From assembly GCF_947488135.1 (NCBI RefSeq), contig NZ_CANKYW010000006.1, positions 124,001-188,000 of the forward strand: DNA of 64,000 nucleotides. The letters run 5' to 3'. A program made the position numbers and the translations under genes. How positions within the stretch are numbered: position 1 is the stretch's first letter; each line of letters begins with the position of its first letter. The DNA is from an uncultured Marivita sp. (GTDB lineage Bacteria > Pseudomonadota > Alphaproteobacteria > Rhodobacterales > Rhodobacteraceae). This document shows positions 19,908 to 56,172 of the stretch, in pieces. A model generated the notes under the pieces. It ran no database searches and was not told where the DNA came from. It was given only the letters and a program-made list of their open reading frames with translations.

Positions 19908-20005
19908 CGCCTTACCCCTTTTCGGCTGTGATGGGGCAGAGCGTCCGGCGCGGGCCCTTAAATTTGGTTAACGGGGCGCGCGGCGTACAAGTGCGATGCT
20001 TTTTT

Positions 20006-20020
20006 CTGCGTTGCGGCAAA
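20006..20020 (+). promoter_or_regulatory. Shared ethylmalonyl-CoA-pathway motif upstream of mcl2
   Basis: CTGCGTTGCGGCAAA, 78-92 nt before the mcl2 start. Inside it TTGC-G-GCAA is a 9-bp palindrome. Near-identical 13-mers precede ecm (34079-34091), ccr (35727-35739) and mcd (56160-56172). A second box, TTTTTGCAAAA (20034-20044), follows; TTTGCAAA-type sites are recognised by ScfR-family regulators such as RamB and PccR. Confidence 0.5.
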
Positions 20021-20097
20021 TCAGGTGTTGCAGTTTTTGCAAAAGAATGTAGCTCTCTGGCGCAACATTATTTCGCAGACTCGCTCAGGAGACCGCA

Positions 20098-20955
20098 ATG
20101 GACATGCGCAGCCGCCCCTACCGCTCGGTTCTATATATCCCGGGATCGAAGGACCGGGCGCTGGACAAGGCGCGGGGATTGCCGGTCGATGCGATTATCT
20201 TCGATCTCGAGGATGCGGTGGCGGTCGATGAAAAACCAGCCGCGCGGGCGACGCTGAAAAAGGCGTTGGCCGAGGGTGGGTATGGCGCGCGGGTCAAGAT
20301 CGTCAGGATCAACGGGCTGGACACCGACTGGGGCCGGGCCGATGCCGAGGCCGTGGCGCAGATGGATTGCGACGCGGTGCTGTTGCCCAAGGTCGAATCC
20401 GTCGCGCAACTGGATGCGCTGGCCGAGATCACCGGCGACCTGCCGATCTGGGCGATGATGGAAACACCGCGCGGCATGCTGAACGCCGCCGAGATCGCGG
20501 CGCATCCAAAGATGGCTGGAATGGTGATGGGCACCAATGACCTGGCCAAGGAGTTGCAGACCCGGTTCCGTGCCGACCGTTTGCCGCTGCTGACGTCGCT
20601 GGCGATGTGCCTTCTCGCGGCCAAGGCCGAGGGGCTGGTGATCGTAGATGGTGTCTATAACGCGTTCAAGGATGACGAGGGGCTGAAAGCCGAGTGCGCG
20701 CAGGGGCGCGACATGGGCTTCGATGGCAAGACGCTGATCCACCCGGCGCAGGTGGACATCGCAAACACCGCCTTTGCGCCAGCGCCCGAAGAGATCGACC
20801 TTGCGCGCCGCCAGATCGCCGCGTTCGAAGAGGCCGAGGCGGCCGGGCAGGGCGTTGCCGTGGTGGATGGAAAGATCGTCGAAAACCTTCACGTTGCCAC
20901 GGCGCGTGAAATACTGGCAAAAGCAGAGGCAATCGAAACCATCCAAACGGGGTAA
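20098..20955 (+). CDS. mcl2: (3S)-malyl-CoA thioesterase (CitE-like)
   Basis: Hydrolyses (3S)-malyl-CoA to malate and CoA, the last step of the ethylmalonyl-CoA pathway. 285 residues, HpcH/HpaI-CitE TIM barrel: RSVLYIPGSKDRAL, metal ligands in DLEDAVA and METPRGMLNA, VMGTNDLAKEL, and KTLIHPAQV. The length and the position between mdh and mch match mcl2 of R. sphaeroides as I recall it, rather than the longer malyl-CoA lyase Mcl1. Start ATG 20098 has AGGAGA 6 nt upstream. First gene of a four-gene run ending in mch. Confidence 0.82.
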   Translation: MDMRSRPYRSVLYIPGSKDRALDKARGLPVDAIIFDLEDAVAVDEKPAARATLKKALAEGGYGARVKIVRINGLDTDWGRADAEAVAQMDCDAVLLPKVESVAQLDALAEITGDLPIWAMMETPRGMLNAAEIAAHPKMAGMVMGTNDLAKELQTRFRADRLPLLTSLAMCLLAAKAEGLVIVDGVYNAFKDDEGLKAECAQGRDMGFDGKTLIHPAQVDIANTAFAPAPEEIDLARRQIAAFEEAEAAGQGVAVVDGKIVENLHVATAREILAKAEAIETIQTG

Positions 20956-20958
20956 GCC

Positions 20959-21510
20959 ATGATGGGTCTTCTTGTTCTCGGACTGCTGATTTGGGTTGGC
21001 GCCCATATCTTCAAGCGCGTTGCGCCAGAGCAACGCGCTGCGATGGGCGACACCGGCAAGGGCGTGGTGGCCGTTGCGTTGTTGATCAGCCTTGTTCTGA
21101 TGATCTGGGGCTATCGCGGAGCAGAGTTCATCCCTGTCTGGTATCCGCCAGCGTTCCTGACGCATGTGAACAACCTGCTGATGCTGATTGCGGTTTTCGT
21201 TTTCGGGATGAGCGCCACAACGGGGCGTCTACGCGGCAAGATGCGGCATCCGCAGCTGACAGCGGTCAAGATCTGGGCGGTGGCGCACCTTTTGGTGAAC
21301 GGGGATGTGGCGTCGATCATCCTGTTCGGCGGGATGTTGGCCTGGGCGGTGCTCGAGGTGATCTTGATCAATCGCGCAGTGCCGGTCTGGGATCGTCCGC
21401 AGCCGGGTGAGGCGAAGAAGGATGTTCTTCTGGTCGTGATCTCGCTCGTCGCCTACGGCGTCATGACGGCAATCCACGCGTGGCTCGGCGTTTGGCCTTT
21501 TCCGGGGTGA
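20959..21510 (+). CDS. NnrU-family membrane protein
   Basis: 183 residues with five or six predicted transmembrane helices. RHPQLTAVKIWAVAHLLVNGD is the signature of the NnrU family, first linked to nitrite/nitric-oxide metabolism but widespread in bacteria without denitrification. No denitrification gene is visible nearby. Starts 4 nt after mcl2 and is followed after 3 nt by the DUF1737 gene, so it belongs to the mcl2 operon. Confidence 0.85.
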   Translation: MMGLLVLGLLIWVGAHIFKRVAPEQRAAMGDTGKGVVAVALLISLVLMIWGYRGAEFIPVWYPPAFLTHVNNLLMLIAVFVFGMSATTGRLRGKMRHPQLTAVKIWAVAHLLVNGDVASIILFGGMLAWAVLEVILINRAVPVWDRPQPGEAKKDVLLVVISLVAYGVMTAIHAWLGVWPFPG

Positions 21511-21513
21511 GGC

Positions 21514-21717
21514 ATGAAGATTTATAGATTTCTGACCGAAGACGACACGTCGGCCTTTTGCCACAAAGTGTCTCTCGCATTGAGCAAGGGCTGGGAGCTT
21601 TATGGCGATCCGACCTATGCGTTCGATCAGGCCAATGGCGTGATGCGCTGTGGTCAGGCGGTCACGAAAGAGGTCGACACCCCTTACAGTCCGGAGATGA
21701 AACTTGGCGAACAGTGA
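21514..21717 (+). CDS. DUF1737-domain small protein
   Basis: 67 residues. Almost the whole chain (YRFLTEDDTSAFCHKVSLALSKGWELYGDPTYAF) matches the DUF1737 pattern: a short helix with hydrophobic spacing, then GWELYG and a beta strand. Soluble, function unknown. It sits between the NnrU gene and mch in a tight run of four genes. Confidence 0.82.
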   Translation: MKIYRFLTEDDTSAFCHKVSLALSKGWELYGDPTYAFDQANGVMRCGQAVTKEVDTPYSPEMKLGEQ

Positions 21718-21751
21718 CACACTCGAACGAAGCACGGTGCGGGGCGACGCG

Positions 21752-22783
21752 ATGACGAAGACCAATCCGGGCCGCTTTTTCGAAGATTATTCGGTTGGAC
21801 AGGTGATCCGACACGCAGTGCCGCGCACGGTGTCGGGTGGAGAAAGGGCGCTGTACCACGCTTTGTACCCGGCGCGTCATGCGCTGTATTCGTCAGATGT
21901 GTTTGCGCAAAGTTGCGGGCTACCATCTTCGCCGATCGACGATCTGGCGGCGTTTCACGTGGTCTTCGGCAAGTCGGTCCCGGATGTATCGCTGAATGCG
22001 GTGGCCAATCTGGGGTATGCCGAGGGCCGCTGGCTCACTCCGGTTTATGCGGGCGATACCTTGCGGTCTGAATCCGAGGTGATCGGGCTCAAGCAGAACT
22101 CGAACGGCAAGACGGGTGTCGTTTGGGTGCGGACGCGCGGTTTGAACCAGAACGACCAAGTGGTGATGGAGTACGTTCGCTGGGTGATGGTGCGCAAGCG
22201 CGACGCGGAGGCGGCGGCGCCCGAGACCGTGGTCCCCGACCTGAAGCCGGTGCTGGCGATCGAAGACCTGAGCATCCCGCGCGGGCTCGATTTCACGGAT
22301 TACGATTTCGAACTGGCCGGAGAACCGCATCGCTGGGGCGACTACGAGATTGGCGAGACCATCGACCACGTGGACGGTGTGACCATCGAGGAAGCCGAGC
22401 ACATGATGGCGACACGGCTTTGGCAGAATACCGCCAAAGTGCATTTCGACGCCACCTTCCGGCCCGATGGTCAGCGGCTGATATACGGCGGGCATGTGAT
22501 CAGCATGGCGCGGGCGCTGTCCTTCAACGGGCTGGCCAACGCGCAGATGATTATTGGGCTGAACGGCGGGGCGCATGCGAACCCGTGCTTCAGTGGCACC
22601 ACGGTGCGGGCGTGGTCGGAGGTTCTGGACAAGGCGGAAACGTCGGCCCCCGGCGTTGGCGCGGTGCGGCTGCGACTGGTGGCGACGTTGGCTGATGGCG
22701 CGTTCGAACTCAAGGGTGAGGACGGGAAGTACCTGCCTCATGTACTGCTTGATCTCGACTATTGGGCATTGATGCCCGTCTGA
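21752..22783 (+). CDS. mch: Mesaconyl-CoA hydratase (ethylmalonyl-CoA pathway)
   Basis: Hydrates mesaconyl-C1-CoA to beta-methylmalyl-CoA. 343 residues, about the length I recall for R. sphaeroides Mch. Double-hotdog MaoC-like protein: the first half has the degenerate fold (GRFFEDYSVGQVIRH, GNLKYAD-like GYAEGRW), the second a full hydratase domain with HFDATFRPDGQRLIYGGHVISMARALSFNGL. Start ATG 21752 is chosen by length; an in-frame TTG at 21704 has a good GGAG but overlaps the preceding gene. Cotranscribed with mcl2. Confidence 0.88.
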   Translation: MTKTNPGRFFEDYSVGQVIRHAVPRTVSGGERALYHALYPARHALYSSDVFAQSCGLPSSPIDDLAAFHVVFGKSVPDVSLNAVANLGYAEGRWLTPVYAGDTLRSESEVIGLKQNSNGKTGVVWVRTRGLNQNDQVVMEYVRWVMVRKRDAEAAAPETVVPDLKPVLAIEDLSIPRGLDFTDYDFELAGEPHRWGDYEIGETIDHVDGVTIEEAEHMMATRLWQNTAKVHFDATFRPDGQRLIYGGHVISMARALSFNGLANAQMIIGLNGGAHANPCFSGTTVRAWSEVLDKAETSAPGVGAVRLRLVATLADGAFELKGEDGKYLPHVLLDLDYWALMPV

Positions 22784-22834
22784 CACGCGCGCCGGACTAT
22801 TGTCATACAGTGAGCGATCTTCCGCGAAAAATCA

Positions 22835-22848
22835 GGGTTGCGCTAACA
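22835..22848. promoter_or_regulatory. Candidate LacI-family operator upstream of sdhC
   Basis: GGGTTGCGCTAACA: the right half GCTAACA equals the half site before glgP, and the reverse strand reads TTAGCGCAACC, the same 11-mer found twice between pckA and chvI. It lies about 170-183 nt before sdhC and 22 nt upstream of the paired TGTGATCACA boxes. Candidate site for a CceR-like regulator; inference only. Confidence 0.42.
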
Positions 22849-22869
22849 TGATTCTCGGCGCGCACAATC

Positions 22870-22900
22870 TGTGATCACAGCTTTCCGACGTGTGATCACT
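22870..22900. promoter_or_regulatory. Paired TGTGATCACA operator upstream of sdhC
   Basis: TGTGATCACA at 22870-22879 and TGTGATCACT at 22891-22900, 21 bp centre to centre with an 11-bp spacer. Spacing and distance to the start codon (about 118-139 nt) match the pair upstream of sucC. It probably serves the sdhCDAB promoter in the 234-bp gap after mch. Confidence 0.6.
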
Positions 22901-23017
22901 AAATCAGAGAAAACTGGTCGCTTGCGCCAAAAAACCGCGCCTAATGTTGGTGGGTCGGCGTGACACGGCTTAGAAAAGCAATAGAAAGACTGTCAGGAAC
23001 TGGAAAGGACTCAGATC

Positions 23018-23404
23018 ATGGCTGACGTCAATCGGGGCAATCGTCCCCTGTCACCACACCTGCAAGTTTATCGCCCCCAGCTTACATCGATCACATCGAT
23101 CCTGACGCGCATCACTGGCAATGCCCTGATTGTCGCGTCGCTGATGATTGTCTGGTGGTTGCTCGCGGCATCGACCGGGCCGGAATATTTCGCGGTCGCG
23201 AATGGCTTTGTGACAAGCTGGTTCGGCGATATCGTCATGTTCCTGTCGCTTTGGGCGCTGTGGTATCACACGCTCGCCGGTATCCGGCACCTGATCTGGG
23301 ACAACGCGAAGATGCTCGAAATCGACCGGGCCGAGATGCTGGGTTGGATGGTGATCATCGGGTCCGGTGTTCTGACCGTTTTCTCTGTCGTCGTTCTTTG
23401 GTGA
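23018..23404 (+). CDS. sdhC: Succinate dehydrogenase cytochrome b556 subunit
   Basis: Membrane anchor of complex II, 128 residues, three transmembrane helices (about 30-54, 68-90, 105-127). The N-terminus has the family signature RPLSPHLQVYR, and SLWALWYHTLAGIRHLIWD carries the haem-ligand histidine in helix 2. Start ATG 23018 has GGAAAGGA upstream. First gene of sdhC-sdhD-sdhA-lipoprotein-sdhB. Confidence 0.95.
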   Translation: MADVNRGNRPLSPHLQVYRPQLTSITSILTRITGNALIVASLMIVWWLLAASTGPEYFAVANGFVTSWFGDIVMFLSLWALWYHTLAGIRHLIWDNAKMLEIDRAEMLGWMVIIGSGVLTVFSVVVLW

Positions 23405-23414
23405 GGTGCGCAAC

Positions 23415-23786
23415 ATGGCTTTTCTGACTGATCGCAAACGCGCCATCGGATGGGGTGCTGCAAAATCAGGGACCGAGCATTTCTGGTCGATGAAAAAATC
23501 GTCCGTCGCGCTGCTGATCCTGATCCCGTTTTTCGTTTTCACGTTCGGAGGCATTCTCGGGTCCTCCTTTGAAGAGGTGCAGGCCTATTACGCGCGCCCC
23601 TTCCCGGCGATCATCGCGGGTCTGACGCTGATCGTCGGGTTCAAGCACTTCAATGACGGTTTCCAGACACTGATCGAAGACTACGTGCATGGCGTGTGGG
23701 AAAAGATCCTGATCCTTGGCATGACCTGCATCAGCTACGGCGCGGCCGCCGTCGGCGTCTTTGCAATCGCCAAAATGGCCCTTTGA
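23415..23786 (+). CDS. sdhD: Succinate dehydrogenase membrane anchor subunit
   Basis: 123 residues, three transmembrane helices (about 29-49, 59-79, 97-119). The segment ARPFPAIIAGLTLIVGFKHFNDGFQTLIEDYVHG has the histidines and the conserved D-Y-x-H expected for SdhD of alphaproteobacteria. Start ATG 23415 is preferred over GTG 23406 because the GTG falls inside the GAGGTG ribosome site. Confidence 0.93.
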   Translation: MAFLTDRKRAIGWGAAKSGTEHFWSMKKSSVALLILIPFFVFTFGGILGSSFEEVQAYYARPFPAIIAGLTLIVGFKHFNDGFQTLIEDYVHGVWEKILILGMTCISYGAAAVGVFAIAKMAL

Positions 23787-23807
23787 GATATCGGAGCTAA
23801 ACAGACT

Positions 23808-32015: not shown

Positions 32016-33992
32016 TTATTCTGCGGCAACCGCCTGCGGGTCGGCCAAAGTCACGATGTCCATCATGATCGCATTCAATTCAAAGTCCTTGGGCGTATAC
32101 ACCTTTGAGACTCCCATAGCGCGCAGGCGTTTGGCGTCTTCGTCTGGAATGATGCCTCCGACGATCACGGGGATGTGCCCGAGGCCAGCATCGCGCATTT
32201 TGGCCATCATGTCCTCGACAAGCGGGATATGGCTGCCTGACAGGATCGAAAGTCCAACGACGTGGACGTCATTGTCGCGCGCTGCGGCGACGATCTGGTC
32301 CGGGGTGAGGCGGATGCCTTCATAGTCGATCTCCATCCCGCAATCGCGGGCGCGGAAGGCGATCTGTTCGGCGCCGTTGGAATGGCCGTCAAGGCCTGGC
32401 TTGCCGACAAGGAACTTGAGGCGGCGGCCAAGGCGATCGCTGACGGCGTTGACCGCCTCGCGGATGTCGTCGAGGCCTTCGGTCTTGTTGGAGACAGATT
32501 TCGACACGCCGGTGGGTCCACGGTATTCGCCGTAAACGGCTCGCATTTCGCCAGCCCATTCTCCGGTGGTGACGCCGGCTTTTGCACAAGCTATGGAGGC
32601 TGGCATGACGTTTGCGCCTTCCTTCGCGGCAGCGCGCAAGTCGGCTAGCGCCTTTTGCACCGCGTCGCTGTCGCGCTCGGATCGCCACGCGTTCAGGCGC
32701 TTGATTTGTTCCTGTTCTACCGCCGGGTCGACAACCATGATGCCACCGTCCTCGGTCTGAAGGGGAGACGGTTCGCCTTCGATCCATTTGTTCACGCCGA
32801 CGACAATGGTTTCGTTGCGTTCGATCTTGTTCAGGCGGTCAGCATTGGAATCGACCAGACGCCCCTTCATGTAGTCAATCGCTCCGATGGCGCCGCCCAT
32901 GGAGGCGAGGTTCGCCAGTTCGGCGCGCGCGCCCTCTTTGAGCTGTTCGACCTTTGCGTCAATGGCTGGGTTGCCGTCGAACAGGTCATCGAACTCCAGA
33001 AGATCGGTTTCATAAGCCAGGATCTGCTGCATCCGCATCGACCATTGCTGGTCCCACGGGCGCGGCAGGCCGAGGGCCTCGTTCCATGCGGGAAGCTGCA
33101 CCGCGCGAGCGCGGGCTTTCTTGGAGAGCGTGACCGCCAGCATTTCGATCAAGATGCGGTAGACGTTGTTTTCGGGCTGCTGTTCGGTCAAGCCAAGGCT
33201 GTTGACCTGCACGCCATAGCGAAAGCGGCGGTACTTGGGGTCGGTGACGTCGTAGCGTTGTTCGAGGATCTCGTCCCAGAGATCGACGAAGGCCCGCATC
33301 TTGCACATTTCGGTGACAAACCGGATGCCCGCGTTGACGAAAAAGCTGATGCGTCCACAGAGTGCCGGGAAGTCTTTGGCGGGGACGCGCGGTTTGAGTT
33401 CGTCAAGCACGGCGATCGCGGTGGCCAAGGCGAAGGACAGTTCCTGTTCCGGCGTCGCGCCAGCCTCTTGCAAGTGATAGGAACACACGTTCATCGGATT
33501 CCATTTGGGAATGTGCGTGTAGCAATATTCGGCCACGTCCCCGATCATCTTGAGCGACGGTTTCGGCGGGCAGATATAGGTGCCGCGCGACAGGTATTCC
33601 TTGATCAAATCGTTCTGCACGGTGCCTTGCAGTTTGGACACATCCGCGCCCTGTTCCTCGGCCACGGCGACATAGAGCGCCAGAAGCCACGGGGCGGTCG
33701 CGTTGATCGTCATGGAGGTGTTCATCTGTTCGAGCGGAATTTGATCGAACAATGTCCGCATGTCGCCAAGATGGCTCACAGGCACGCCCACCTTGCCCAC
33801 CTCGCCACGCGCCAGTATGTGATCGCTGTCATATCCCGTTTGCGTCGGCAGATCGAAGGCCACCGATAGACCGGTCTGACCCTTGGACAGGTTCGACCGG
33901 TAAAGCGCGTTGGACGCTTGCGCAGTCGAGTGGCCTGCATATGTGCGGATCAACCAAGGACGGTCACGGGGCGGGGTCTGGGCGTCTGTCAT
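32016..33992 (-). CDS. ecm: Ethylmalonyl-CoA mutase, B12-dependent
   Basis: Converts (2R)-ethylmalonyl-CoA to (2S)-methylsuccinyl-CoA. 658 residues: N-terminal substrate barrel (GLSVAFDLPTQTGYDSDHI, NTSMTINATAPWLLALYVA) and C-terminal cobalamin domain with DGHSNG (Asp535, His537 as lower cobalt ligand), SILSGSH and GGIIP. The slightly short single-chain form and the linkage with ccr identify the Ecm clade rather than methylmalonyl-CoA mutase. GGAG 6 nt before the ATG. In R. sphaeroides ecm is adjacent to ccr; here a PlsB-like gene lies between them, reading the other way from ecm. Confidence 0.92.
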   Translation of the reverse strand: MTDAQTPPRDRPWLIRTYAGHSTAQASNALYRSNLSKGQTGLSVAFDLPTQTGYDSDHILARGEVGKVGVPVSHLGDMRTLFDQIPLEQMNTSMTINATAPWLLALYVAVAEEQGADVSKLQGTVQNDLIKEYLSRGTYICPPKPSLKMIGDVAEYCYTHIPKWNPMNVCSYHLQEAGATPEQELSFALATAIAVLDELKPRVPAKDFPALCGRISFFVNAGIRFVTEMCKMRAFVDLWDEILEQRYDVTDPKYRRFRYGVQVNSLGLTEQQPENNVYRILIEMLAVTLSKKARARAVQLPAWNEALGLPRPWDQQWSMRMQQILAYETDLLEFDDLFDGNPAIDAKVEQLKEGARAELANLASMGGAIGAIDYMKGRLVDSNADRLNKIERNETIVVGVNKWIEGEPSPLQTEDGGIMVVDPAVEQEQIKRLNAWRSERDSDAVQKALADLRAAAKEGANVMPASIACAKAGVTTGEWAGEMRAVYGEYRGPTGVSKSVSNKTEGLDDIREAVNAVSDRLGRRLKFLVGKPGLDGHSNGAEQIAFRARDCGMEIDYEGIRLTPDQIVAAARDNDVHVVGLSILSGSHIPLVEDMMAKMRDAGLGHIPVIVGGIIPDEDAKRLRAMGVSKVYTPKDFELNAIMMDIVTLADPQAVAAE

Positions 33993-34078
33993 GTCAGCTC
34001 CGTCGAGGGCGAGGTTTACGCGGTAATCTTGTTACGTTTTGCGATGCATACGTGAAACATTATATCGCTGTCAATTCG

Positions 34079-34091
34079 CTGCGTTGCGGCA
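34079..34091 (+). promoter_or_regulatory. Shared ethylmalonyl-CoA-pathway motif upstream of ecm
   Basis: CTGCGTTGCGGCA, identical over 13 bases to the copy before mcl2. Written on the plus strand, thus inverted relative to ecm, whose start lies 87-99 nt away. It is in the 270-bp divergent region shared with the PlsB-like gene (start 34263), which could also be its target. Confidence 0.48.
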
Positions 34092-34262
34092 TCGGTTACT
34101 TTTCTGCGTGACAGCATATCCCAGCTGCCTGGCATTGGAATAGGCAAAGCCGCGTTATCTCAAGCATAGTGGGCCGTGCCCATTTGCAAAAAAGCGGGCA
34201 AGCCGCCCCAAAACCCTGCGTAAGCGGTTTACCCTGTCCGCCTTCGTTGCAAGAGTGGCGGC

Positions 34263-35606
34263 ATGACAAGTCAGGTGACGCTGCCTCTTTGGGCTTTTAT
34301 TTTGATCCTGCTCTTTGCGGCAGTCACCTTTGCGTCGCATTTCCTGTTTCCGTCGGTCCGCTGGTTTTTTCGCAGGCGGATGGAGCGTGCCGTCAAGCGG
34401 CTGAACGAACGGCTTGAACGTCCGATCCAGCCTTTCAAGCTTCTGCGGCGGCAGGACATGATCCAGCGCCTCATCTATGATCCCGAGGTCACGGAAGCGA
34501 TTGTCGAACACGCGCAAGCCGAAGGTGTGCGCGAGGATGTGGCGTTCGAACGTGCGCGCCGCTATGCACGAGAGATTGTGCCGTCGTTTTCGGCTTGGGC
34601 TTATTTCGGCTTCGCCATTCGCGCCGCCCGACTGCTCAGCACGTCCTTGTACCGGGTGCGTATGGTGCATCAGGATGCCGGATTGGCCGGGGTGGACCCC
34701 GAGGCAACCGTGGTGTTCGTCATGAACCATCGGTCGAACATGGATTACGTGCTTGTGACCTATCTCGCGGCCGATCGATCCGCGCTGTCCTACGCGGTCG
34801 GCGAATGGGCGCGGGTCTGGCCACTGTCGCGATTGATCCGGGCCATGGGGGCGTATTTCATCAGGCGCAAATCCCGGAACGATCTCTATCGAAAGGTTCT
34901 GGCGAAATATGTTCAGCAGGCCACCGGAGCCGGGGTCACGCAGGCGGTCTTCCCGGAAGGTGGGTTGAGCCTTGATGGAAGTGTCGGCCGAGCGAAGGTG
35001 GGTATCCTCAAATACATCATCGAAGGCGCGGCATCCGCCAAGCGGGATGTGGTTTTCGTCCCGGTCGCCCTGAATTACGACCGGGTGCTTGAGGACACGA
35101 TACTCATGAAGGCGCAACAGACGGGTGAGCGAAAGTTTCGTGCCAAGATCAGCGTTGTGTTCCGCGCCATTCTGCGACAGCTCTGGCTGCGTGTCAGCGG
35201 GCGGTTTCACCGCTTCGGCTATGCGGCGGTGAGCTTTGGAGAGCCCCTGTTGCTGAGTTCCGTCGAAGGCGGGCATGACCGGCCAGAGGCGATCTCCGCG
35301 ACGATCATGTCGCGGATCTCGTCTTCGGTGCCCGTCCTCCCGGTGCCATTGATTGCGTCCTTGCTGCTTCGGGACGGGCCAATGACGCGCGAGGCGCTAG
35401 AGATCGCATACAGCAAAGAAATGGATCGGCTTAAAGATGCGCAGGTTCATGTCCCTCGAAACAGTCTTGATTACGCGGTCGATTTTGGACTGCGCAATCT
35501 CCTGGAGAGGCGGATCGTGGTCGAGGAAGATGGCGTGGTCAGCATCTCGGACGGAAAGGATGCGCTGGCTGGCTTCTATGCGAATTCGATCAAACACTTG
35601 ATGTAG
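34263..35606 (+). CDS. PlsB-like glycerol-3-phosphate/lysophospholipid acyltransferase
   Basis: 447 residues. One N-terminal transmembrane helix (about 9-29), a helical linker, then the acyltransferase domain with NHRSNMD (HX4D, His156-Asp161), a GAYFIRRKS motif, and FPEGGLSLDG for the phosphate of the acceptor. It is shorter than E. coli PlsB (about 800 residues) but the motifs HRSxMD and GAxFIRR are PlsB-like. Likely adds the first acyl chain of phospholipids. Divergent from ecm. Confidence 0.8.
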   Translation: MTSQVTLPLWAFILILLFAAVTFASHFLFPSVRWFFRRRMERAVKRLNERLERPIQPFKLLRRQDMIQRLIYDPEVTEAIVEHAQAEGVREDVAFERARRYAREIVPSFSAWAYFGFAIRAARLLSTSLYRVRMVHQDAGLAGVDPEATVVFVMNHRSNMDYVLVTYLAADRSALSYAVGEWARVWPLSRLIRAMGAYFIRRKSRNDLYRKVLAKYVQQATGAGVTQAVFPEGGLSLDGSVGRAKVGILKYIIEGAASAKRDVVFVPVALNYDRVLEDTILMKAQQTGERKFRAKISVVFRAILRQLWLRVSGRFHRFGYAAVSFGEPLLLSSVEGGHDRPEAISATIMSRISSSVPVLPVPLIASLLLRDGPMTREALEIAYSKEMDRLKDAQVHVPRNSLDYAVDFGLRNLLERRIVVEEDGVVSISDGKDALAGFYANSIKHLM

Positions 35607-35726
35607 CGAAGTTCTGCATGTGCGAACGAAATGCTGCGCTCGCTCGGTCATAAAATTACAAAATTGACCGAAATCTTATTGCAAAATTTCAATCCTGCAC
35701 ATATTTCAGGATCAGACGCCGCGATT

Positions 35727-35741
35727 CTGCATTGCGGCACA
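35727..35741 (+). promoter_or_regulatory. Shared ethylmalonyl-CoA-pathway motif upstream of ccr
   Basis: CTGCATTGCGGCACA, differing from the mcl2 and ecm copies at one base in the first 13. It is 28-42 nt before the ccr start, so close that it would overlap the promoter or the transcript start. A TTGCAAAA-containing box (ATTGCAAAAT, 35678-35687) lies upstream, as near mcl2. Confidence 0.48.
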
Positions 35742-35768
35742 GATTGGACATCACGGAAGGAGGCTCCG

Positions 35769-37055
35769 ATGGCATTGGATCAGCAGACCGGCATCGCGGC
35801 ATATGACGCGCCCGAGAAGGACTTGTACGAGATCGGCGAAATGCCCCCGTTGGGCTATGTGCCAAAGAAAATGTACGCCTGGGCGATCCGTCGTGAGCGC
35901 CATGGCGAGCCGGAGCAGGCCTTCGAGGTCGAAGTGGTCGACACGTGGGAGATCGACAGCCACGAAGTGCTGGTCCTCGTGATGGCCGCTGGCGTCAATT
36001 ACAACGGCGTCTGGGCCGGTCTTGGCCAGCCCATCAGCCCCTTTGATGGTCATAAGCAGCCGTATCACATCGCGGGCTCCGATGCCTCGGGCATCGTCTG
36101 GAAGGTCGGTGACAAGGTGAAGCGCTGGAAGGTCGGTGACGAGGTCGTCATCCACTGCAACCAGGACGACGGCGACGACGAGGAATGCAACGGCGGCGAC
36201 CCGATGTTCAGCCCGACCCAGCGCATTTGGGGCTATGAAACGCATGACGGTTCTTTTGCCCAGTTCACCCGCGTGCAGGCGCAGCAGTTGATGCCGCGTC
36301 CCAAGCATCTGACTTGGGAAGAAAGCGCGTGCTATACGCTCACACTGGCCACGGCATACCGGATGTTGTTCGGCCACCAGCCGCATGAATTGCGCCCGGG
36401 TCAGAACGTTCTGGTCTGGGGCGCGTCGGGTGGATTGGGGTCCTACGCGATCCAGTTGGCGAACACGGCCGGGGCGAACGCGATCGGCGTCATTTCGGAT
36501 GAAGACAAGCGTGACTTCGTCATGTCGATGGGCGCCAAGGGCGTCATCAATCGCAAGGAATTCAAGTGCTGGGGCCAACTGCCCACGGTGAATACGCCTG
36601 AATATAAGGAGTGGTTCACCGAGGCGCGTAAGTTCGGCAAGGCGATCTGGGACATCACCGGCAAGGGCAAGAACGTCGACATGGTGTTCGAGCATCCGGG
36701 TGAAAGCACGTTCCCCGTTTCCACGCTGGTCTGCAAAAAGGGCGGCATGGTCGTGATTTGCGCCGGCACGACGGGCTTCAACTGTACGTTCGACGTGCGG
36801 TATATGTGGATGCACCAGAAGCGTTTGCAGGGCTCTCACTTCGCGCATCTGAAACAGGCGGCCTCGGCAAACCAGCTTATGGTGGAGCGCCGTCTCGATC
36901 CCTGCATGTCCGAGGTGTTCCCGTGGAACGAAATCCCGCAGGCTCATACCAAGATGCTGCGCAACGAACACAAGCCGGGCAATATGGCCGTCTTGGTCCA
37001 GTCCCCGAAGACCGGGTTGCGCACGTTCGAGGACGCGTTGGCCGCCGGATCGTAA
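35769..37055 (+). CDS. ccr: Crotonyl-CoA carboxylase/reductase
   Basis: NADPH-dependent reductive carboxylation of crotonyl-CoA to (2S)-ethylmalonyl-CoA, the committed step of the ethylmalonyl-CoA pathway. 428 residues, MDR fold: AAGVNYNGVWAGLGQP near the active site, NADPH motif WGASGGLGSYAIQLA, and FNCTFDVRYMWMHQKRLQGSHF, where His is one of the CO2-pocket residues of the family. Start ATG 35769 has a perfect GGAAGGAGG; the in-frame extension to 35631 is unsupported. A terminator follows the stop. Confidence 0.95.
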   Translation: MALDQQTGIAAYDAPEKDLYEIGEMPPLGYVPKKMYAWAIRRERHGEPEQAFEVEVVDTWEIDSHEVLVLVMAAGVNYNGVWAGLGQPISPFDGHKQPYHIAGSDASGIVWKVGDKVKRWKVGDEVVIHCNQDDGDDEECNGGDPMFSPTQRIWGYETHDGSFAQFTRVQAQQLMPRPKHLTWEESACYTLTLATAYRMLFGHQPHELRPGQNVLVWGASGGLGSYAIQLANTAGANAIGVISDEDKRDFVMSMGAKGVINRKEFKCWGQLPTVNTPEYKEWFTEARKFGKAIWDITGKGKNVDMVFEHPGESTFPVSTLVCKKGGMVVICAGTTGFNCTFDVRYMWMHQKRLQGSHFAHLKQAASANQLMVERRLDPCMSEVFPWNEIPQAHTKMLRNEHKPGNMAVLVQSPKTGLRTFEDALAAGS

Positions 37056-37267: not shown

Positions 37268-37483
37268 ATGGGACATGATTGGATCATAGACGTGTTGACC
37301 GACCTCAAGACGTTTGCTGTCGCGAACGATCTGGATGCCTTGGCCGCCAAGCTGGATGATACCCAACTGGTGGCACAGGCAGAGCTCGGGTCGCGCGGTA
37401 AAGGGATGGGCCGTGGGCTTCTTGGAGAGAGTGCCTCAGTTGGACGATGTGATAGCGCGTTTGGAACGCGCAGAACGTCTTGA
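37268..37483 (+). CDS. Small protein upstream of and overlapping luxR
   Basis: 71 residues. The first 45 (MGHDWIIDVLTDLKTFAVAN, then DLDALAAKLDDTQLVAQAEL) look like a genuine amphipathic helical protein, and the ATG has an excellent CTGGAGGTGA ribosome site. The last 25 residues lie in the region overlapping luxR in another frame and look random. I believe similar short proteins stand before other roseobacter luxR genes, but cannot confirm it. Function unknown; a partner or translational leader of LuxR is possible. Confidence 0.65.
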   Translation: MGHDWIIDVLTDLKTFAVANDLDALAAKLDDTQLVAQAELGSRGKGMGRGLLGESASVGRCDSAFGTRRTS

Positions 37484-38141
37484 GGAATTACAAAGCATCA
37501 TAGAATGGCTGCGTGATCATTACGCGGTCGACGACATGGTCTATCACTGGGTGTCCAGCAACGGCACGCAATATGGCTGTGGCACTTATGACCCAAAGTG
37601 GGTCGCCCGATATCTTGATCAGGGATATCTTCGGATCGATCCGGTGGTGCTTGGCTGTTACCAGCGGTTTCATCCGGTCGATTGGAAGCGTCTGGATTGG
37701 TCGAGCAAGGCCGCGCGTGCACTCATGAGCGATGCGGTCGCGCATGGGATCGGAAATCAGGGGTATTCGATCCCGATCCGGGGGCCCAACGGTCAGTTCG
37801 CCTTGTTCACGGTCAGTCACACCTGCGACGACGAAACGTGGAAAAGCTTTACCGAATTGAACCGCCGCGATCTCATTTTGCTGGCGCACTACTTCAATCA
37901 GACTGCGCTGAGGCTTGAACCCGGCCGCACGCCTGAACCGACGCAGGCGCTGTCGCCACGTGAGGTTGAGACGATGACACTCCTCGCGGTTGGCTATAGC
38001 CGGGCGCAGGTTGCAGACACGCTCTCCATTTCCGAGCATACCTTGCGCGTTTACATCGAGAGCGCGCGCTTCAAGCTTGGCGCATTGAACACAACCCATG
38101 CGGTGGCGCGCGCGATGGCGCGGGGGTTGATCGTGGTTTGA
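37413..38141 (+). CDS. luxR: LuxR-type quorum-sensing transcription regulator
   Basis: 242 residues. The N-terminal autoinducer domain has the conserved pattern with W and Y in PKWVARYLDQGY, D-P in RIDPVV, and W in HPVDWKRLDW; the C-terminal GerE helix-turn-helix is LSPREVETMTLLAVGYSRAQVADTL then VYIESARFKLGALNTTHAVARAM. Start: GTG 37413, preceded by AAAGGGATGG, overlaps the small upstream gene by 71 nt; GTG 37431 is an alternative. Paired with luxI 123 nt downstream. Confidence 0.9.
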   Translation: MGFLERVPQLDDVIARLERAERLEELQSIIEWLRDHYAVDDMVYHWVSSNGTQYGCGTYDPKWVARYLDQGYLRIDPVVLGCYQRFHPVDWKRLDWSSKAARALMSDAVAHGIGNQGYSIPIRGPNGQFALFTVSHTCDDETWKSFTELNRRDLILLAHYFNQTALRLEPGRTPEPTQALSPREVETMTLLAVGYSRAQVADTLSISEHTLRVYIESARFKLGALNTTHAVARAMARGLIVV

Positions 38142-51275: not shown

Positions 51276-51686
51276 ATGGTTGTCAAATTTGCTAAAGGAC
51301 TTGCAAAGCTGAGCTTCCTCGGCGCGGGCACGGCTGCCGTCATTGGGCTGTGGGATTACACACAGCAGGCGAAAGCGGCCGACTATGATTTATCCTTCGC
51401 ACAGTATCAGGCCTCGGTCGTCGATCGTTACGGGGATCAGGCTGGCGACGTATTCGCAGTCGCCCATTCCGGCATCGCAAGCGGCTACGCGTGGGCGTCC
51501 CGATCCGGCGTATTGGAACTTGCGGGTCTTACCGAGGATGGCAGCGTGATTGACGAGAGTGATCCGCTTGTGGTCATCGTCGATGATCCTGAAAGTTCCG
51601 TCGAGACAGAAATCGAAGTCGCGGCTGCGGATGGTGGATTGGCACCGGATTCATCGCTCTTGCCGCGGGCGCGCGCTCTTCAATGA
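51276..51686 (+). CDS. Membrane-anchored or secreted protein, unknown
   Basis: 136 residues. A basic N-terminus (KFAKGLAK) and hydrophobic segment (about 12-27) ending near AKAADYD (about 33-36) suggest a signal peptide or anchor. The mature part is acidic (pI low by eye): FAQYQASVVDRYGDQAGDVF and a very acidic tail with VVIVDDPESSVETEIEVAAADGG. TGGAGGG 6 nt before the ATG. No family recognised. Confidence 0.65.
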   Translation: MVVKFAKGLAKLSFLGAGTAAVIGLWDYTQQAKAADYDLSFAQYQASVVDRYGDQAGDVFAVAHSGIASGYAWASRSGVLELAGLTEDGSVIDESDPLVVIVDDPESSVETEIEVAAADGGLAPDSSLLPRARALQ

Positions 51687-51796
51687 CGGCTTGAATCGCC
51701 TGCGCGTCGTTTTCCTGCCGCAACGTGTCGGGAAGGTTTGGCGGCGCGGTCGGCGCAACGGTATTCACGGGGTCAAACGCCTCGGAGTGAATACCC

Positions 51797-54298
51797 ATGA
51801 AAACGCATGTCAAAGCTTTGGTCGTCGGCGGCGGCGCCGTCGGCACCTCGATCGCCTATCACCTCGCGCGTGCGGGCTGGGACGATGTGATGCTGCTCGA
51901 ACGGGACGAACTCACGTCCGGGTCGACATGGCACGCTGCGGGGCTTTTGCCGTATTTCAACATGTCCTACGCGACGACACATATCCACGATTATTCGATC
52001 AAGTATTACAAGACGCTTGAAGAGGAGACCGGGCTGAACGCGGGGTTTTCGGTCGTCGGCAATTTGCGGATGGCGCAAAGCCAGGCGCGCATGGACGAAT
52101 ACATGCTTTACGCCACCACAGCCGAAACCTGCGGCGTGCCCTATGAATGGCTGTCGCCCGCGCAGATCAACGAACGGTATCCGCTGTTGCGCACCGAGGA
52201 TCTGGTTGGCGCGATTTATCACCCTTTGGATGGGTACATTAACCCCGCCGACGTCACGATGGCGATGGCCAAGGGCGCGCGCCAGCGCGGCGTCGTGATC
52301 GAACGCAAGTGGCAGGTAGATTCGTACCACTGGACCGGCGACCACTGGGATGTGACCGTCACAAAGATGGTCGAGAAGGGCGGCAATCTTGTTCCGTCCG
52401 ACGAACAGACGGTGATCCATGCCGAACATGTCGTGACCGCCACCGGCAACCACGCGCAGCGCACGGCAAAACTTCTGGGGATCAAGATCCCGGCGATTCC
52501 GGTGGAACATCAGTATATCGTCACCGAACCCGACCCGGCGCTGGTCGAATGGCGCAAGGCCGGCAATCCGGAGCATCCCGTGCTGCGCGATGCCGATGCC
52601 AAATGGTATGTGCGCGAAGAACGCGGCGGCTGGATCCTTGGCCCCTACGAGCGCAACGCGCCCGCGCGTTTTGAATACGGCGTGCCGGACAGCTTTCGCG
52701 CCGATCTCTTTCCGCTCGATCTGGAGCGGATCGAGGAGGAATACATGAGCATGATCCACCGGATTCCGACCTCGGAAACGGTTGGTCTGAAAGACGATTT
52801 CAACGGTCCGATCTGCTATACGCCGGACGGAAATCCGCTTTTGGGGCCCGCACCGGGATTGCGCAACATGTGGCTGGCCGAAGGGTTTTCCTTCGGGATC
52901 ACGGCTGCGGGCGGTACGGGGTATTATCTTGCGCAGTTGATGGTCGAAGGGGAGGCCGAGATCGACATGGCCTCGCTCGACCCCAAGCGCTACGGGTCGT
53001 GGATGACCACCGAATACGCTGCGCGCAAGAACGAAGAGGCGTATGAGCACGTCTACATCCTGCACCACGCTGACGAGGAACGCCCGGCCTGTCGTCCGCT
53101 TCGTACGGCGCCAGCGTACGATCGACAAAAGGCGCTGGGCGCGCAGTTCGGCTGTGTGAACGGGTGGGAACGTCCGAACTACTACGGGCCTTTGGATGCG
53201 GCGGAAACCTTCGACCACGACGCGCGGTCGTTCCGTCGCGGTGGCTGGTGGCAATATGCCGTCGACGAAGCCAAGGCGATCCGTGAAGGCGTCGGTCTGA
53301 TCGACGCGACGGCGTTCACCAAGCATGTGGTCAAAGGGCCGGGGGTGACCCGGTTTCTGGATTGGTTCACCTGCAACAAGCTGCCCAAAATTGGCCGCAT
53401 CAACCTGACCTATGCGCTGACCGATCACGGCACTACCCGGACGGAATACACCATCGTGCGGTTGGGTGAGGATGAGTATTACCTCGTCTCGGCAGGGGCC
53501 TGGACAGCCTATGACGCCGATTACCTGAAGAAGGCGGCCGAGGATAAAGCAGGTGAGTTCGGCAATATCGAGATTCAGGATGTGACCACGCAATGGGGTG
53601 TGTTTGCCATCGCCGGACCGAAATCTCGTGATGTGCTGAACGAGATCGTCAAGGATGCCGATCCGGCAACGGTTCTCAGCAACAAACGCTTCCCATGGTT
53701 GACCTGCCGCGACATCGAGTTGGGCATGTGCCCGGTGCGGGCGATCCGGGTGGCCTATACGGGCGAACTGGGTTGGGAATTGCATCACCCGATCGAGATG
53801 CAGAACTACCTGTGGGATCAGTTGATGGCGGCGGGGGCCGGGCACGACATGAAACTGGTCGGCGCTCGGGCGCAGAACTGGTTGCGGCAGGAAAAATCCT
53901 ATCGCGCCTTCGGCAACGAGCTGGGCCGCGATGCGACGCCGCTCGAAGCCGATCTGCCGCGTTTTATCGACCTGTCGAAGGACTTTCACGGCAAGGCGGC
54001 GTTGGAAAAGACCGGTATACGGTCGAAGTGCTGCACGTTGCTGATCGACGGACCGGAGGATGCCGATCCCTGGGGGCGCGAGGCGCTCTATGATGGGGAG
54101 ACGCGCGTCGGGCGTCTAACCTCGGGCGGTTATTCGGTGGCGTTCGGGAAATCCATCGGCATGGGATATGTGACGCCCGAACTGGCGGTTCCGGGGACCA
54201 AGCTCAAGGTCAAGATGTTCGATCGGCTTTGGGATGCCGAGGTGGTCGAAGACAGCCCGTACGATCCCAAGAACGAGGCGATCCGACAAGACGGGTGA
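51797..54298 (+). CDS. FAD-dependent dehydrogenase with GcvT domain (dimethylglycine/sarcosine dehydrogenase-like)
   Basis: 833 residues, normal for two-domain demethylating dehydrogenases. N-terminal DAO domain: GGGAVGTSIAYHLARAGW at 11-28 and GSTWHAAGL with His46 at the position of the covalent FAD histidine of dimethylglycine dehydrogenase. A linker (FAO_M type) follows, then a C-terminal GcvT-like tetrahydrofolate-binding domain (about 420-830; GVGLIDATAFTKHVVKGPG, RVAYTGELGWELH, GYSVAFGKSIGMGYV). It probably demethylates an N-methyl amine; which one is unknown. Monocistronic, ending at paired palindromes. Confidence 0.85.
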   Translation: MKTHVKALVVGGGAVGTSIAYHLARAGWDDVMLLERDELTSGSTWHAAGLLPYFNMSYATTHIHDYSIKYYKTLEEETGLNAGFSVVGNLRMAQSQARMDEYMLYATTAETCGVPYEWLSPAQINERYPLLRTEDLVGAIYHPLDGYINPADVTMAMAKGARQRGVVIERKWQVDSYHWTGDHWDVTVTKMVEKGGNLVPSDEQTVIHAEHVVTATGNHAQRTAKLLGIKIPAIPVEHQYIVTEPDPALVEWRKAGNPEHPVLRDADAKWYVREERGGWILGPYERNAPARFEYGVPDSFRADLFPLDLERIEEEYMSMIHRIPTSETVGLKDDFNGPICYTPDGNPLLGPAPGLRNMWLAEGFSFGITAAGGTGYYLAQLMVEGEAEIDMASLDPKRYGSWMTTEYAARKNEEAYEHVYILHHADEERPACRPLRTAPAYDRQKALGAQFGCVNGWERPNYYGPLDAAETFDHDARSFRRGGWWQYAVDEAKAIREGVGLIDATAFTKHVVKGPGVTRFLDWFTCNKLPKIGRINLTYALTDHGTTRTEYTIVRLGEDEYYLVSAGAWTAYDADYLKKAAEDKAGEFGNIEIQDVTTQWGVFAIAGPKSRDVLNEIVKDADPATVLSNKRFPWLTCRDIELGMCPVRAIRVAYTGELGWELHHPIEMQNYLWDQLMAAGAGHDMKLVGARAQNWLRQEKSYRAFGNELGRDATPLEADLPRFIDLSKDFHGKAALEKTGIRSKCCTLLIDGPEDADPWGREALYDGETRVGRLTSGGYSVAFGKSIGMGYVTPELAVPGTKLKVKMFDRLWDAEVVEDSPYDPKNEAIRQDG

Positions 54299-54302
54299 GA
54301 AC

Positions 54303-54344
54303 GCGGATGCGTTAACGCATCCGCAGTTTTCCGTTAACGGAAAA
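54303..54344. terminator. Two tandem perfect palindromes between convergent genes
   Basis: 54303-54324: a perfect 22-bp palindrome with arms GCGGATGCGTT. 54327-54344: a perfect 18-bp palindrome with arms TTTTCCGTT. Both are centred on GTTAAC and separated by two bases. The second has A/T ends on both sides, so it can act as an intrinsic terminator in either direction, for the FAD dehydrogenase gene (stop 54298) and for mcd (stop 54365). Confidence 0.7.
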
Positions 54345-54364
54345 CGGGTCTCTGAAATCCCCGC

Positions 54365-56053
54365 TCAGCCAAGAAGCCGTCGCGCGATGACCTGCGCTTG
54401 AATCTCGGCGGCCCCTTCGAAGATGTTAAGGATACGCGCATCACAGAGGATGCGGCTGATCTTGTATTCCAGCGCAAAGCCGTTTCCGCCGTGGATTTGC
54501 AGCGCGTTGTCGGCAGCCGCCCAGGCCACGCGAGCCCCCAGCAGCTTGGCCATGCCGGCTTCAAGGTCGCAGCGACGCCCCTCGTCTTTCTCGCGGGCCG
54601 AGAAGTAGGTGAGCTGACGCGCGATCATGATTTCGACCGCCATCATCGCGAGTTTCGATGCGACGCGCGGGAAGTGGATCAGCGCTTTGCCGAATTGCTT
54701 GCGGTCCTGTGCGTATTTCATGCCCTCGTCCAGCGCGGATTGCGCGACGCCGATGGCACGGGCGGCGGTCTGGATGCGAGCCGACTCAAACGTCTCCATC
54801 AACTGCTTGAAGCCCTTGCCTTCTTCCATCCCCAGGAGGTTCTCGCCCTTGACCTTGAAGTCGTCGAAGTTGAGCGTGTATTCCTTCATGCCGCGATAGC
54901 CGAGCACCTCGATCTCACCGCCCGAAATGCCCGGGTCCTGCCAAGGCGCTTCGTCGGTGCCGGGTGTCTTTTCGGCAAGGAACATGGACAAGCCGCGATA
55001 ATCGGAGGTGTCCGGCACGGTGCGCGCCAGCACCGTCATCACATGGGTGCGGGCGGCGTGGGTGATCCAGGTCTTGTTGCCGTTGATGATCCAATCGCCG
55101 TTTTCGTCCTTCACGGCTTTGGTGCGGAGCGACCCGAGGTCAGAGCCTGTATTCGGTTCGGTAAACACGGCGGTCGGCAGGATTTCACCTGATGCGAGAC
55201 CGGGAAGCCATTTTGCCTTTTGCTCATCCGTTCCGCCGGCGATGACCAGTTCGGCCGCGATCTCGGACCGAGTGCCAAGGGAACCGACCCCGATATATCC
55301 GCGCGACAGTTCTTCAGAGACAACGCACATGGAATTCTTGGAGAGACCAAAGCCGCCATGCTCTTCGGGGATGGTCAGGCCGAAGACGCCCATCTCGGCC
55401 AGCTCATCGATGATTTCCATCGGGATGAGTTCATCCTTGAGGTGCCATTCGTGCGCGTAGGGCTCGACCTTGTCGAGAGAGAAGCGGCGGAATTGCTCGC
55501 GGATCATTTCGAGCTCTTCGTCCAGACCGCAGGCCCCGACGGTCAGTTCCGCGCTGCGTTCCTGCATCAGCTCGACCAGACGAATGCGCGCCGCCTGTGT
55601 ATTGCCCTCTTGCGTCAGGCGCATGACCTCAGGTGTCATCAGAAGGCGCATATCATCTTGCGAGAGGCCGATGTCCTGAAGGCGGACAATTTCGCCCTGG
55701 TTCATCTGGATGCCGCCGTAGATCTGCCAGAGATATTCGCCGAACGCGATCTGGTGGATAAGCTGCTCGACCTCGCCGAACTTGCCATCGGCATCCAGGC
55801 GCTCGGCCCAACCCTGCATCTGGCGCAGAGATTCGACGTACGTCGCCAACCATGCAAGGCCGTGTGCGGCGGTCTGGTTTTCCTCGATCAGCGCGCCGGA
55901 CACGCGACCCTCGGATTCCACCATGTCGCGGACGCGTGCGGCGGCTTTTTCAAGCACCTTATTGGCGGGGTCCACGGCAGCGCCGGTGAGGCTCAGCAGG
56001 TCGGGCAGGATGGTTTCGGTCGTCAGGGTCAAGTCTTGTCCGTCATGGGCCAT
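54365..56053 (-). CDS. mcd: (2S)-methylsuccinyl-CoA dehydrogenase
   Basis: Oxidises (2S)-methylsuccinyl-CoA to mesaconyl-CoA in the ethylmalonyl-CoA pathway. 562 residues, about 170 more than a normal acyl-CoA dehydrogenase: the extra N-terminal helical domain (about 1-165, HQIAFGEYLWQIYGGIQMNQGEIVRL) is a hallmark of Mcd. The ACAD core has TIPEEHGGFGLS, VFTEPNTGSDLGSLRT for FAD, WITHAA, and ARILNIFEGAAEIQ at the end. AGGA 9 nt before the ATG. Confidence 0.9.
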   Translation of the reverse strand: MAHDGQDLTLTTETILPDLLSLTGAAVDPANKVLEKAAARVRDMVESEGRVSGALIEENQTAAHGLAWLATYVESLRQMQGWAERLDADGKFGEVEQLIHQIAFGEYLWQIYGGIQMNQGEIVRLQDIGLSQDDMRLLMTPEVMRLTQEGNTQAARIRLVELMQERSAELTVGACGLDEELEMIREQFRRFSLDKVEPYAHEWHLKDELIPMEIIDELAEMGVFGLTIPEEHGGFGLSKNSMCVVSEELSRGYIGVGSLGTRSEIAAELVIAGGTDEQKAKWLPGLASGEILPTAVFTEPNTGSDLGSLRTKAVKDENGDWIINGNKTWITHAARTHVMTVLARTVPDTSDYRGLSMFLAEKTPGTDEAPWQDPGISGGEIEVLGYRGMKEYTLNFDDFKVKGENLLGMEEGKGFKQLMETFESARIQTAARAIGVAQSALDEGMKYAQDRKQFGKALIHFPRVASKLAMMAVEIMIARQLTYFSAREKDEGRRCDLEAGMAKLLGARVAWAAADNALQIHGGNGFALEYKISRILCDARILNIFEGAAEIQAQVIARRLLG

Positions 56054-56159
56054 GAATCGTGTCCTTTCAGCTTTGCCGCTGGATATCTACTTTGCAGGTG
56101 CAGCGCAACAAAAATACCCAGCAGGCCTGCGATTTGTTCCAATCTTTCGTGTGAGATTG

Positions 56160-56172
56160 CTGCTTTGCGGCG
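56160..56172 (+). promoter_or_regulatory. Shared ethylmalonyl-CoA-pathway motif upstream of mcd
   Basis: CTGCTTTGCGGCG, two changes from the mcl2/ecm copies over 13 bases. On the plus strand, so inverted relative to mcd, 107-119 nt from its start, within the 215-bp gap between pckA's end and mcd. A weak AGCGCAAC match to the LacI-type motif is at 56102-56109. Confidence 0.4.

Follow-up and report, generated by a model that had tools for sequence, protein, structure and literature searches.

Sites matching the PhaR operator precede ethylmalonyl-CoA pathway genes in an uncultured Marivita sp. and its relatives and suggest a link to carbon storage

Introduction

In many Alphaproteobacteria, the ethylmalonyl-CoA (EMC) pathway takes the place of the glyoxylate cycle. 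It has been reported that PhaR represses phasin genes and that accumulation of polyhydroxybutyrate (PHB) pulls PhaR onto the granules (PMC12542648). The PhaR site of Rhodobacter sphaeroides is quoted in the same paper as 5'-CTGCNNNGCAG-3', and the PhaR consensus of Bradyrhizobium diazoefficiens is TGCRNYGCASMA (PMC6201568). The mechanism upregulating the EMC pathway was described as one that "remains enigmatic" in Paracoccus denitrificans in 2023 (PMC10370305). The present work concerns the motif CTGCNTTGCGGC, which occurs upstream of the EMC genes mcl2, ecm, ccr and mcd in a 64-kb stretch of DNA from an uncultured Marivita sp. (the window; C6:124001-188000 of a 4.47-Mb genome), the ccr of which shares 98% identity with that of Marivita sp. 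XM-24bin2.

The motif matches published PhaR sites, it is conserved in relatives, and the gene for the regulator is present in the genome. It is probably a PhaR operator, through which PhaR would bind the promoters of ccr, ecm, mcd, mcl2-nnrU-mch, phaP and phaR, here and in the bacterial family. The EMC units covered are those inside the window, mcl1, epi, mcm and pccAB lying outside it.

The Motif in the Window and Its Agreement with PhaR Sites

Copies of CTGCNTTGCGGC stand at 20006, 34079, 35727 and 56160 of the window, all on the + strand and without a fifth, where 0.11 are expected and 0 of 100 shuffles reach four. Each copy is upstream of an EMC gene, namely mcl2 (20098+), ecm (33992-), ccr (35769+) or mcd (56053-), which bears out the original prediction that the motif precedes all four EMC units. 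Genome-wide, the exact string is not specific to EMC genes, as 10 of its 14 copies lie outside the window, three of them intergenic, six coding and one at the lipA start region by a simple open reading frame (ORF) call. A near match at 1749 of the window is also inside coding DNA, where the original prediction had noticed no copy. In the mcl2 unit, mch is the third gene, and an NnrU gene lies between mcl2 and mch.

PhaR is encoded once in the genome (TIGR01848, 150.2 bits; PF07879/PF05233). A genome-wide search with CTGCNTTGCNGC gave 28 places, the phaP-phaR region included, where TTTTTTGCTGCACCGCAGAAAAA and GAAATGCTGCACTGCGGCATGT are the two boxes of phaP and GGCTGCAATGCAGCACAG is the single box of phaR. 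For the comparison with relatives, 80 ccr loci were used, being the best 80 of at least 596 matches and therefore close relatives; ecm with an identified start was found in 68 of them, while the sets for mcd, mcl2 and phaR each comprise the best 30 of 100 genomes, the window's own included, and phaP was found in 23 of the 30 phaR loci. De novo discovery in the 23 phaP and 30 phaR promoters gave T[GT]CTGCAn[TC]GC[AT]GCA. When 80 EMC promoters, a random draw of 20 per gene from the ccr, ecm, mcd and mcl2 sets, were treated in the same way, the matching T[GT]CTGC[GA]nTGCGGC was obtained. Since the same motif emerges from phaP and phaR promoters, the expectation of a regulator dedicated to the EMC pathway is not supported.

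Two matrices were applied. The first, built from phaP and phaR promoters, contains no EMC gene, and with a threshold of 10 bits within 200 bp of the start it is matched in 98% of 80 ccr, 90% of 30 mcl2 and 72% of 68 ecm upstream regions (0.3 to 2.2% in dinucleotide shuffles), in just 17% of 30 mcd upstream regions (shuffles 2%), and in 7/229 other upstream regions of the same 80 loci. Its third-best place in the window is at 1747, in coding DNA, with 16.3 bits, between mcl2 (18.0) and ecm (15.7). The second matrix is symmetric and was derived from 16 Sinorhizobium meliloti sites in promoters efficiently bound by His6-PhaR (PMC12542648, Table 3); the four sites of exoH, of which the binding one is unstated, were omitted, and the acyP site is the reverse of one that was used. 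With a threshold of 9 bits and expectations from shuffles, this published-site matrix detects ccr in 67/80 (6.2 expected), ecm in 42/68 (3.4), mcl2 in 25/30 (1.6), mcd in 26/30 (2.6), phaP in 23/23 (1.8) and phaR in 23/30 (1.6). Its top five places in the 64 kb are mcl2 20001, mcd 56093, ccr 35722, ecm 34099 and ecm 34074, while the near match at about 1749 receives less than 7 bits; the sixth place, at 58138, has 10.3 bits, so that the ecm sites (11.4 and 10.8 bits) barely stand out. Because both the phaP/phaR promoters and the published PhaR sites recover the motif, the proposed regulator shifts from the ScfR family, as originally suggested, to PhaR.

Conservation in Relatives

Upstream of ccr, the exact string occurs in 23/80 loci and CTGCNNNGCRG in 76/80, and a 250-bp coding control has 0/80 for both. 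CTGCRNYGCRG is present in 76/80 ccr upstream regions vs 4/229 other promoters of the same loci, which average 176 bp vs 250 for ccr. The shorter YGCRNYGCR occurs upstream of ccr in 80/80 loci of the family (23.4 by shuffle) and, taken alone, in 50/229 control promoters. The ccr alignment shows CGATTCTGC-RNY-GCGGCA, in which the constant part is the RNY spacer known from the PhaR consensus and not the TT of the string first noticed; as judged from the alignment, the motif core is YGCRNYGCR, and the TT and the fixed G of CTGCNTTGCGGC are not the conserved part. For mcd, the copy at 56160 was rejected as the main site, as the exact motif recurs in 1/30 mcd upstream regions, namely the window's own. 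All 30 mcd upstream regions contain the block GTATTTTTGTTGCGCTGCANNTGCRAA with few substitutions, closer to mcd, and TTGCRNYGC is found in 30/30 (4.0 expected); the block together with the published-site matrix therefore places the mcd site at 56093-56113. In the relatives, the motif is thus conserved upstream of EMC orthologues and rare in other promoters, as a shared regulator site at scattered units was expected to be; its copies in the genome extend beyond the EMC genes.

Outside the family, the ccr upstream regions of the 27 best-matching of 41 genomes with a ccr match (134 searched) were analyzed. YGCRNYGCR was found in 27/27 (5.4 by shuffle), TTGCRNYGC in 26/27 (2.4 expected), and 25/27 reached at least 9 bits with the published-site matrix (1.9 expected); many of these boxes, such as TTGTGCATTGCAAAA, are flanked as in rhizobial PhaR sites. 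A predicted PhaR site at ccr is therefore found widely in Alphaproteobacteria. Family members with a divergent PhaR (36-52% identity) carry a TTGC..GCAA-type variant at ccr, and 9/12 reach at least 9 bits with the published-site matrix. These ccr sites suggest that the operator and PhaR drift together, phaP of the divergent-PhaR genomes not having been located.

Other conserved elements lie near the boxes. A second ccr element, GGTCATAAAATTACAAAA, at 35646-35669 of the window, is found in 72/80 ccr loci, starting about 80 bp before the PhaR box, and in the window it forms the inverted repeat GGTCA-N14-TGACC. An element GGTTAACG lies about 55 bp before the mcl2 box in 26/30 mcl2 loci, and a partly conserved GCGCAA..ATT.GAAC is located about 30-40 bp before the TTGCGCTGC block in mcd upstream regions.

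Genomes without PhaR

PhaR (PF07879) is present in 386/395 near-complete family genomes. All nine PhaR-less genomes are also without PhaC_N (PHB synthase), which is present in 7/7 tested PhaR-positive genomes. Four of the nine have no ccr match (E 1e-100), three have a paralogue only (G090, G127 and G246; 50-52%), and two, G003 and G347 from one genus, have a true ccr, where the phaP/phaR matrix gives the aligned box, TGATTCTGCGCCACGGCTTTG, 6.1 bits. The mcd block of G003 still has GTATTTTTGTTGCGC, the predicted -35 included, but has lost the right half-site (6.0 bits, published-site matrix), and mcl2 has no site (0.5 bits, same matrix). For comparison, 21 PhaR-positive genomes were hand-picked before their ccr was viewed, and 20 remained after G107, which is without ccr; 19/20 reach 10 bits with the phaP/phaR matrix and 16/20 reach 9 with the published-site matrix. 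A ccr box of 10.2 bits (6.8 with the published-site matrix) occurs in G098, where PhaR was not found in an 84%-complete assembly. A second type of ccr-like gene, 50-53% identical, was observed in G090, G127, G246 and G286.

Promoter Layout and Proposed Regulation

All promoters described here are predictions from hexamers. In the predicted phaP promoter of the window genome, the box lies between -35 and -10. The ccr box follows the expected transcription start by about 10 bp, and TTGCAA, present in 42/80 ccr upstream regions (10.5 expected), fits a promoter together with a TATTTC that follows after 17 bp. At mcd, two predicted -35 candidates score equally, and the box overlaps the one as well as the other. 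A box after the ccr start and over the mcd -35 is compatible with repression as at phaP. At ecm, a TTGACA hexamer running from 34074 leftwards abuts the box and is followed by an 18-bp spacer and TATGCA; TTGACA..TATC is conserved beside the ecm box in relatives, and a stricter promoter scan of the ecm region reported none.

The EMC pathway and PHB synthesis have acetoacetyl-CoA and 3-hydroxybutyryl-CoA in common, and PHB would therefore report the substrate supply of the EMC pathway. At low PHB, free PhaR would stay on or beside the EMC promoters and keep them low. Once acetyl-CoA and 3-hydroxybutyryl-CoA are abundant and PHB is made, the granules would titrate PhaR away, and its removal would switch on the EMC pathway, which starts from the same C4-CoA intermediates as PHB. 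From the sequence, we infer PhaR binding at the EMC promoters, the direction of control and PHB as the signal; PHB-titrated PhaR probably regulates the pathway as a repressor, and the lifting of repression by PHB may be proposed most firmly for ccr and mcd. It has been reported that Ccr rises first when P. denitrificans is shifted to acetate, which fits repression lifted by PHB and is no proof of it (PMC10370305). A broader proposition, in favor of which the balance tips only slightly, is that the PHB granule serves as the sensor, and PhaR as the missing EMC switch, throughout the Alphaproteobacteria, the link between ccr and PhaR being ancient and the operators drifting with PhaR.

PhaR-like Sites across the Genome

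The loose pattern CTGCRNYGCRG was discarded as a genome-wide regulon finder, as it gives 292 places on both strands vs 178 for the control. The strict pattern CTGCRNYGCRGCA, used instead, gives 36 places vs 15 for its reverse, and a codon-based ORF call puts 21 of these between genes, although one of them (L302) is actually in a cytochrome-c-like ORF, and two places are the two strands of one palindromic site. The intergenic places include phaP (two), phaR, mcl2, ecm and ccr. Some ORFs first taken as motif targets were dropped, having no family match and better ORFs opposite them. At C1:528741-528772, two PhaR-like boxes 19 bp apart precede a LysR-family gene in a layout like that of phaP. A perfectly palindromic PhaR-like box at C1:637888-637902 is intergenic and followed only by a 64-aa ORF; speculatively, it could possibly belong to a small-RNA promoter like that of S. 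meliloti mmgR.

The features of the window are collected in Table 1. The start of ccr was taken at 35769, matching the protein starts of relatives, while the mechanical ORF extends back to 35631. The gene mcl2, named by length and context, presumably encodes a (3S)-malyl-CoA thioesterase, and the PlsB-like gene divergent from ecm may share the ecm box. Next downstream of ccr is a gene for a LuxR-type autoinducer-binding regulator (37314-38141).

Table 1. Genes and predicted sites of the 64-kb window, in window positions.
Feature	Position	Strand	Evidence
PhaR box (predicted), mcl2 upstream, holds 20006-20018	20001..20021	.	19.4 bits published-site matrix, best of the window; 18.0 phaP/phaR matrix
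mcl2, CitE/malyl-CoA lyase-like	20098..20955	+	NCBIfam citE match below cut-off
NnrU-family protein, between mcl2 and mch	20959..21510	+	Pfam PF07298
mch, mesaconyl-CoA hydratase	21704..22783	+	Pfam PF19315
ecm, ethylmalonyl-CoA mutase (methylmalonyl-CoA mutase family; specific name by context)	32016..33992	-	NCBIfam TIGR00641/TIGR00640
PhaR box (predicted), ecm upstream, holds 34079-34091	34074..34094	.	10.8 bits published-site matrix
Second PhaR-like site, ecm/plsB intergenic region	34099..34119	.	11.4 bits published-site matrix
PlsB-like acyltransferase gene, divergent from ecm	34263..35606	+	NCBIfam plsB match below cut-off
Predicted ccr promoter TTGCAA, 17 bp, TATTTC	35679..35707	+	Hexamer prediction
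PhaR box (predicted), ccr 5' leader (predicted), holds 35727-35739	35722..35742	.	13.2 bits published-site matrix; 19.9 phaP/phaR matrix
ccr, crotonyl-CoA carboxylase/reductase	35769..37055	+	NCBIfam TIGR01751, 632.7 bits
mcd, methylsuccinyl-CoA dehydrogenase (acyl-CoA dehydrogenase family; specific name by context)	54365..56053	-	NCBIfam acyl-CoA dehydrogenase matches; orthologues in relatives
Conserved PhaR box (predicted) of mcd	56093..56113	.	16.0 bits published-site matrix, second in the window
mcd copy of the original prediction, weak PhaR-like site	56160..56172	.	9.0 bits phaP/phaR matrix

Weighing of Alternative Explanations

Several observations weigh against PhaR as a repressor of the EMC genes, and some of them lend themselves to other explanations. 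At ecm, the box comes immediately before the predicted -35, a position that an activator could also take, and the mcl2 promoter can be read in two ways, as the better candidate puts the box just after the start and the weaker one upstream of the -35, giving the same layout as at ecm. Together with some S. meliloti protein modules that behave as PhaR-activated (PMC12542648), this layout would fit EMC boxes that are PhaR sites at which PhaR acts mainly as an activator or in mixed roles. That is unlikely given the positions of the ccr box after its predicted promoter, of the mcd box over the -35 and of the box in the better mcl2 candidate, and given that the S. meliloti motif is concentrated in repressed genes (PMC12542648). 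Among the PhaR-less genomes, G246 carries a 13.5-bit site before its ccr paralogue (about 50% identical), and G347 reaches 12.3 bits elsewhere upstream of ccr with the published-site matrix (G003: 6.4); conversely, G165 has PhaR and PhaC and no box within 220 bp of ccr. Of the divergent-PhaR genomes, G008, G017 and G083 are without such a ccr site, the 9.3-bit ccr hit of G093 is without the core, and their phaR upstream regions reach 10 bits with the family matrix in only 2/11. The single PhaR-less genus with a true ccr counts as one event, so the decay of its box supports the link to PhaR in a suggestive way only. PhaR-like sites also precede unrelated genes, among them a LysR gene, an NMT1-type binding protein, a PqiA/MFS pair and a TRAP-type gene, so that control by PhaR would extend beyond the EMC pathway, as in rhizobia. 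Finally, the main text of a Methylobacterium extorquens phaR transcriptome paper (PMC6520949) contains none of the words "ccr", "ecm" and "crotonyl"; an M. extorquens study cited there found that phaA and phaB, which stand for the first steps common to both routes, were more highly expressed in a phaR mutant, an effect that PMC6520949 itself did not see, and M. extorquens work cited there linked phaR to acetyl-CoA flux.

Another factor of overlapping specificity, either an unknown regulator or an activator of the CcrR/TetR type as in Methylobacterium, might bind the EMC boxes instead. Motif identity is no proof of the binder, the EMC boxes prefer GCGG where phaP has GCAG, the site of G246 exists without PhaR, and CcrR is known as a ccr activator in M. 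extorquens. However, the same motif stands at phaP and phaR, the EMC sites are recovered by an independent matrix of published PhaR sites, and the aligned ccr box has decayed in the genus without PhaR and PhaC, which makes such a factor rather improbable. The dedicated ScfR-type regulator of the RamB/PccR kind put forward in the original prediction is very improbable. The box TTGCAAAA noted near mcl2 and ccr is indeed near both in the window, where it occurs five times (1.6 expected), and in relatives it is found in 3/30 mcl2 (1.1 expected) and 4/30 mcd upstream regions (1.2), but it is not conserved before ccr (2/80, 1.5 expected) or ecm (1/68, 1.4). We take the PccR operator to be TTTGCAAA-like, and TTTGCAAA occurs in 0/80 ccr, 0/68 ecm and 0/30 mcd upstream regions and in 2/30 of those of mcl2 (0.5 expected). 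The ScfR operator was therefore rejected, the TTGCAA of ccr fitting a -35 hexamer; the motif core, moreover, has an RNY spacer, occurs at phaP and phaR, and matches the PhaR sites published for S. meliloti. Deleting the ScfR genes of the PccR and MccR types in P. denitrificans left ccr reporters unchanged (PMC10370305). RamB and PccR control the neighboring acetate and propionate pathways in the same bacterial family, and the RamB operator differs, consisting of paired boxes with an 18-bp spacer (PMC10370305). That the motif reflects chance or base composition, or is a conserved promoter element with no regulator behind it, is hardly credible: the core is GC-rich and degenerate and, as given above, present alone in 50/229 control promoters, and the mcd block partly coincides with the predicted -35, but rates are far lower in shuffles, in reversed sequences and in real control promoters, and the distance from the box to the predicted hexamers varies between genes.

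Significance and Comparison with Known Systems

A link between PhaR and the EMC genes would be one answer to the upregulation of this pathway, coupling carbon storage to acetyl-CoA assimilation. If it holds, mutations of phaC or phaR in the engineering of PHB and organic-acid production would also alter ccr expression, and PhaR, besides regulating storage, would be a conserved controller of a central pathway. In the open-licence literature, from which subscription journals are mostly absent, no report that PhaR controls ccr, ecm, mcd, mcl or mch was found, nor any expression data for these genes from a phaR mutant of this family; the main text of PMC12542648 has no "ethylmalonyl", "crotonyl" or "methylmalonyl", that of PMC6201568 no "ethylmalonyl" or "crotonyl", and that of the R. 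sphaeroides network paper PMC4344238 neither "phaR" nor "ethylmalonyl".

The S. meliloti AniA/PhaR regulon motif WNWD2NYGCRNYGCRNH2WNW has the same core YGCRNYGCR within AT-rich arms, and the conserved mcd site has TTTGTTGCGCTGCAC in common with the S. meliloti phaZ site, which belongs to the 16 matrix sites; the central-carbon targets listed there are gltA, ppdK, zwf and others, unlike the EMC targets here (PMC12542648). The ccr box TGCATTGCGGCA and the mcl2 box TGCGTTGCGGCA are each one base off the B. diazoefficiens consensus, and the B. diazoefficiens ppc site TGCGCTGCGGCA carries the same G as these boxes (PMC6201568). The R. sphaeroides PhaR box shares its half-sites, its 3-bp spacer and the bacterial family with the motif, which also precedes phaP here; the EMC boxes usually have GCGG where that box has GCAG, and they stand before EMC genes rather than phasin genes (PMC12542648). 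PhaR operators are thus known as a kind, and ccr, ecm, mcd, mcl and mch as their targets would be new within the open-licence literature.

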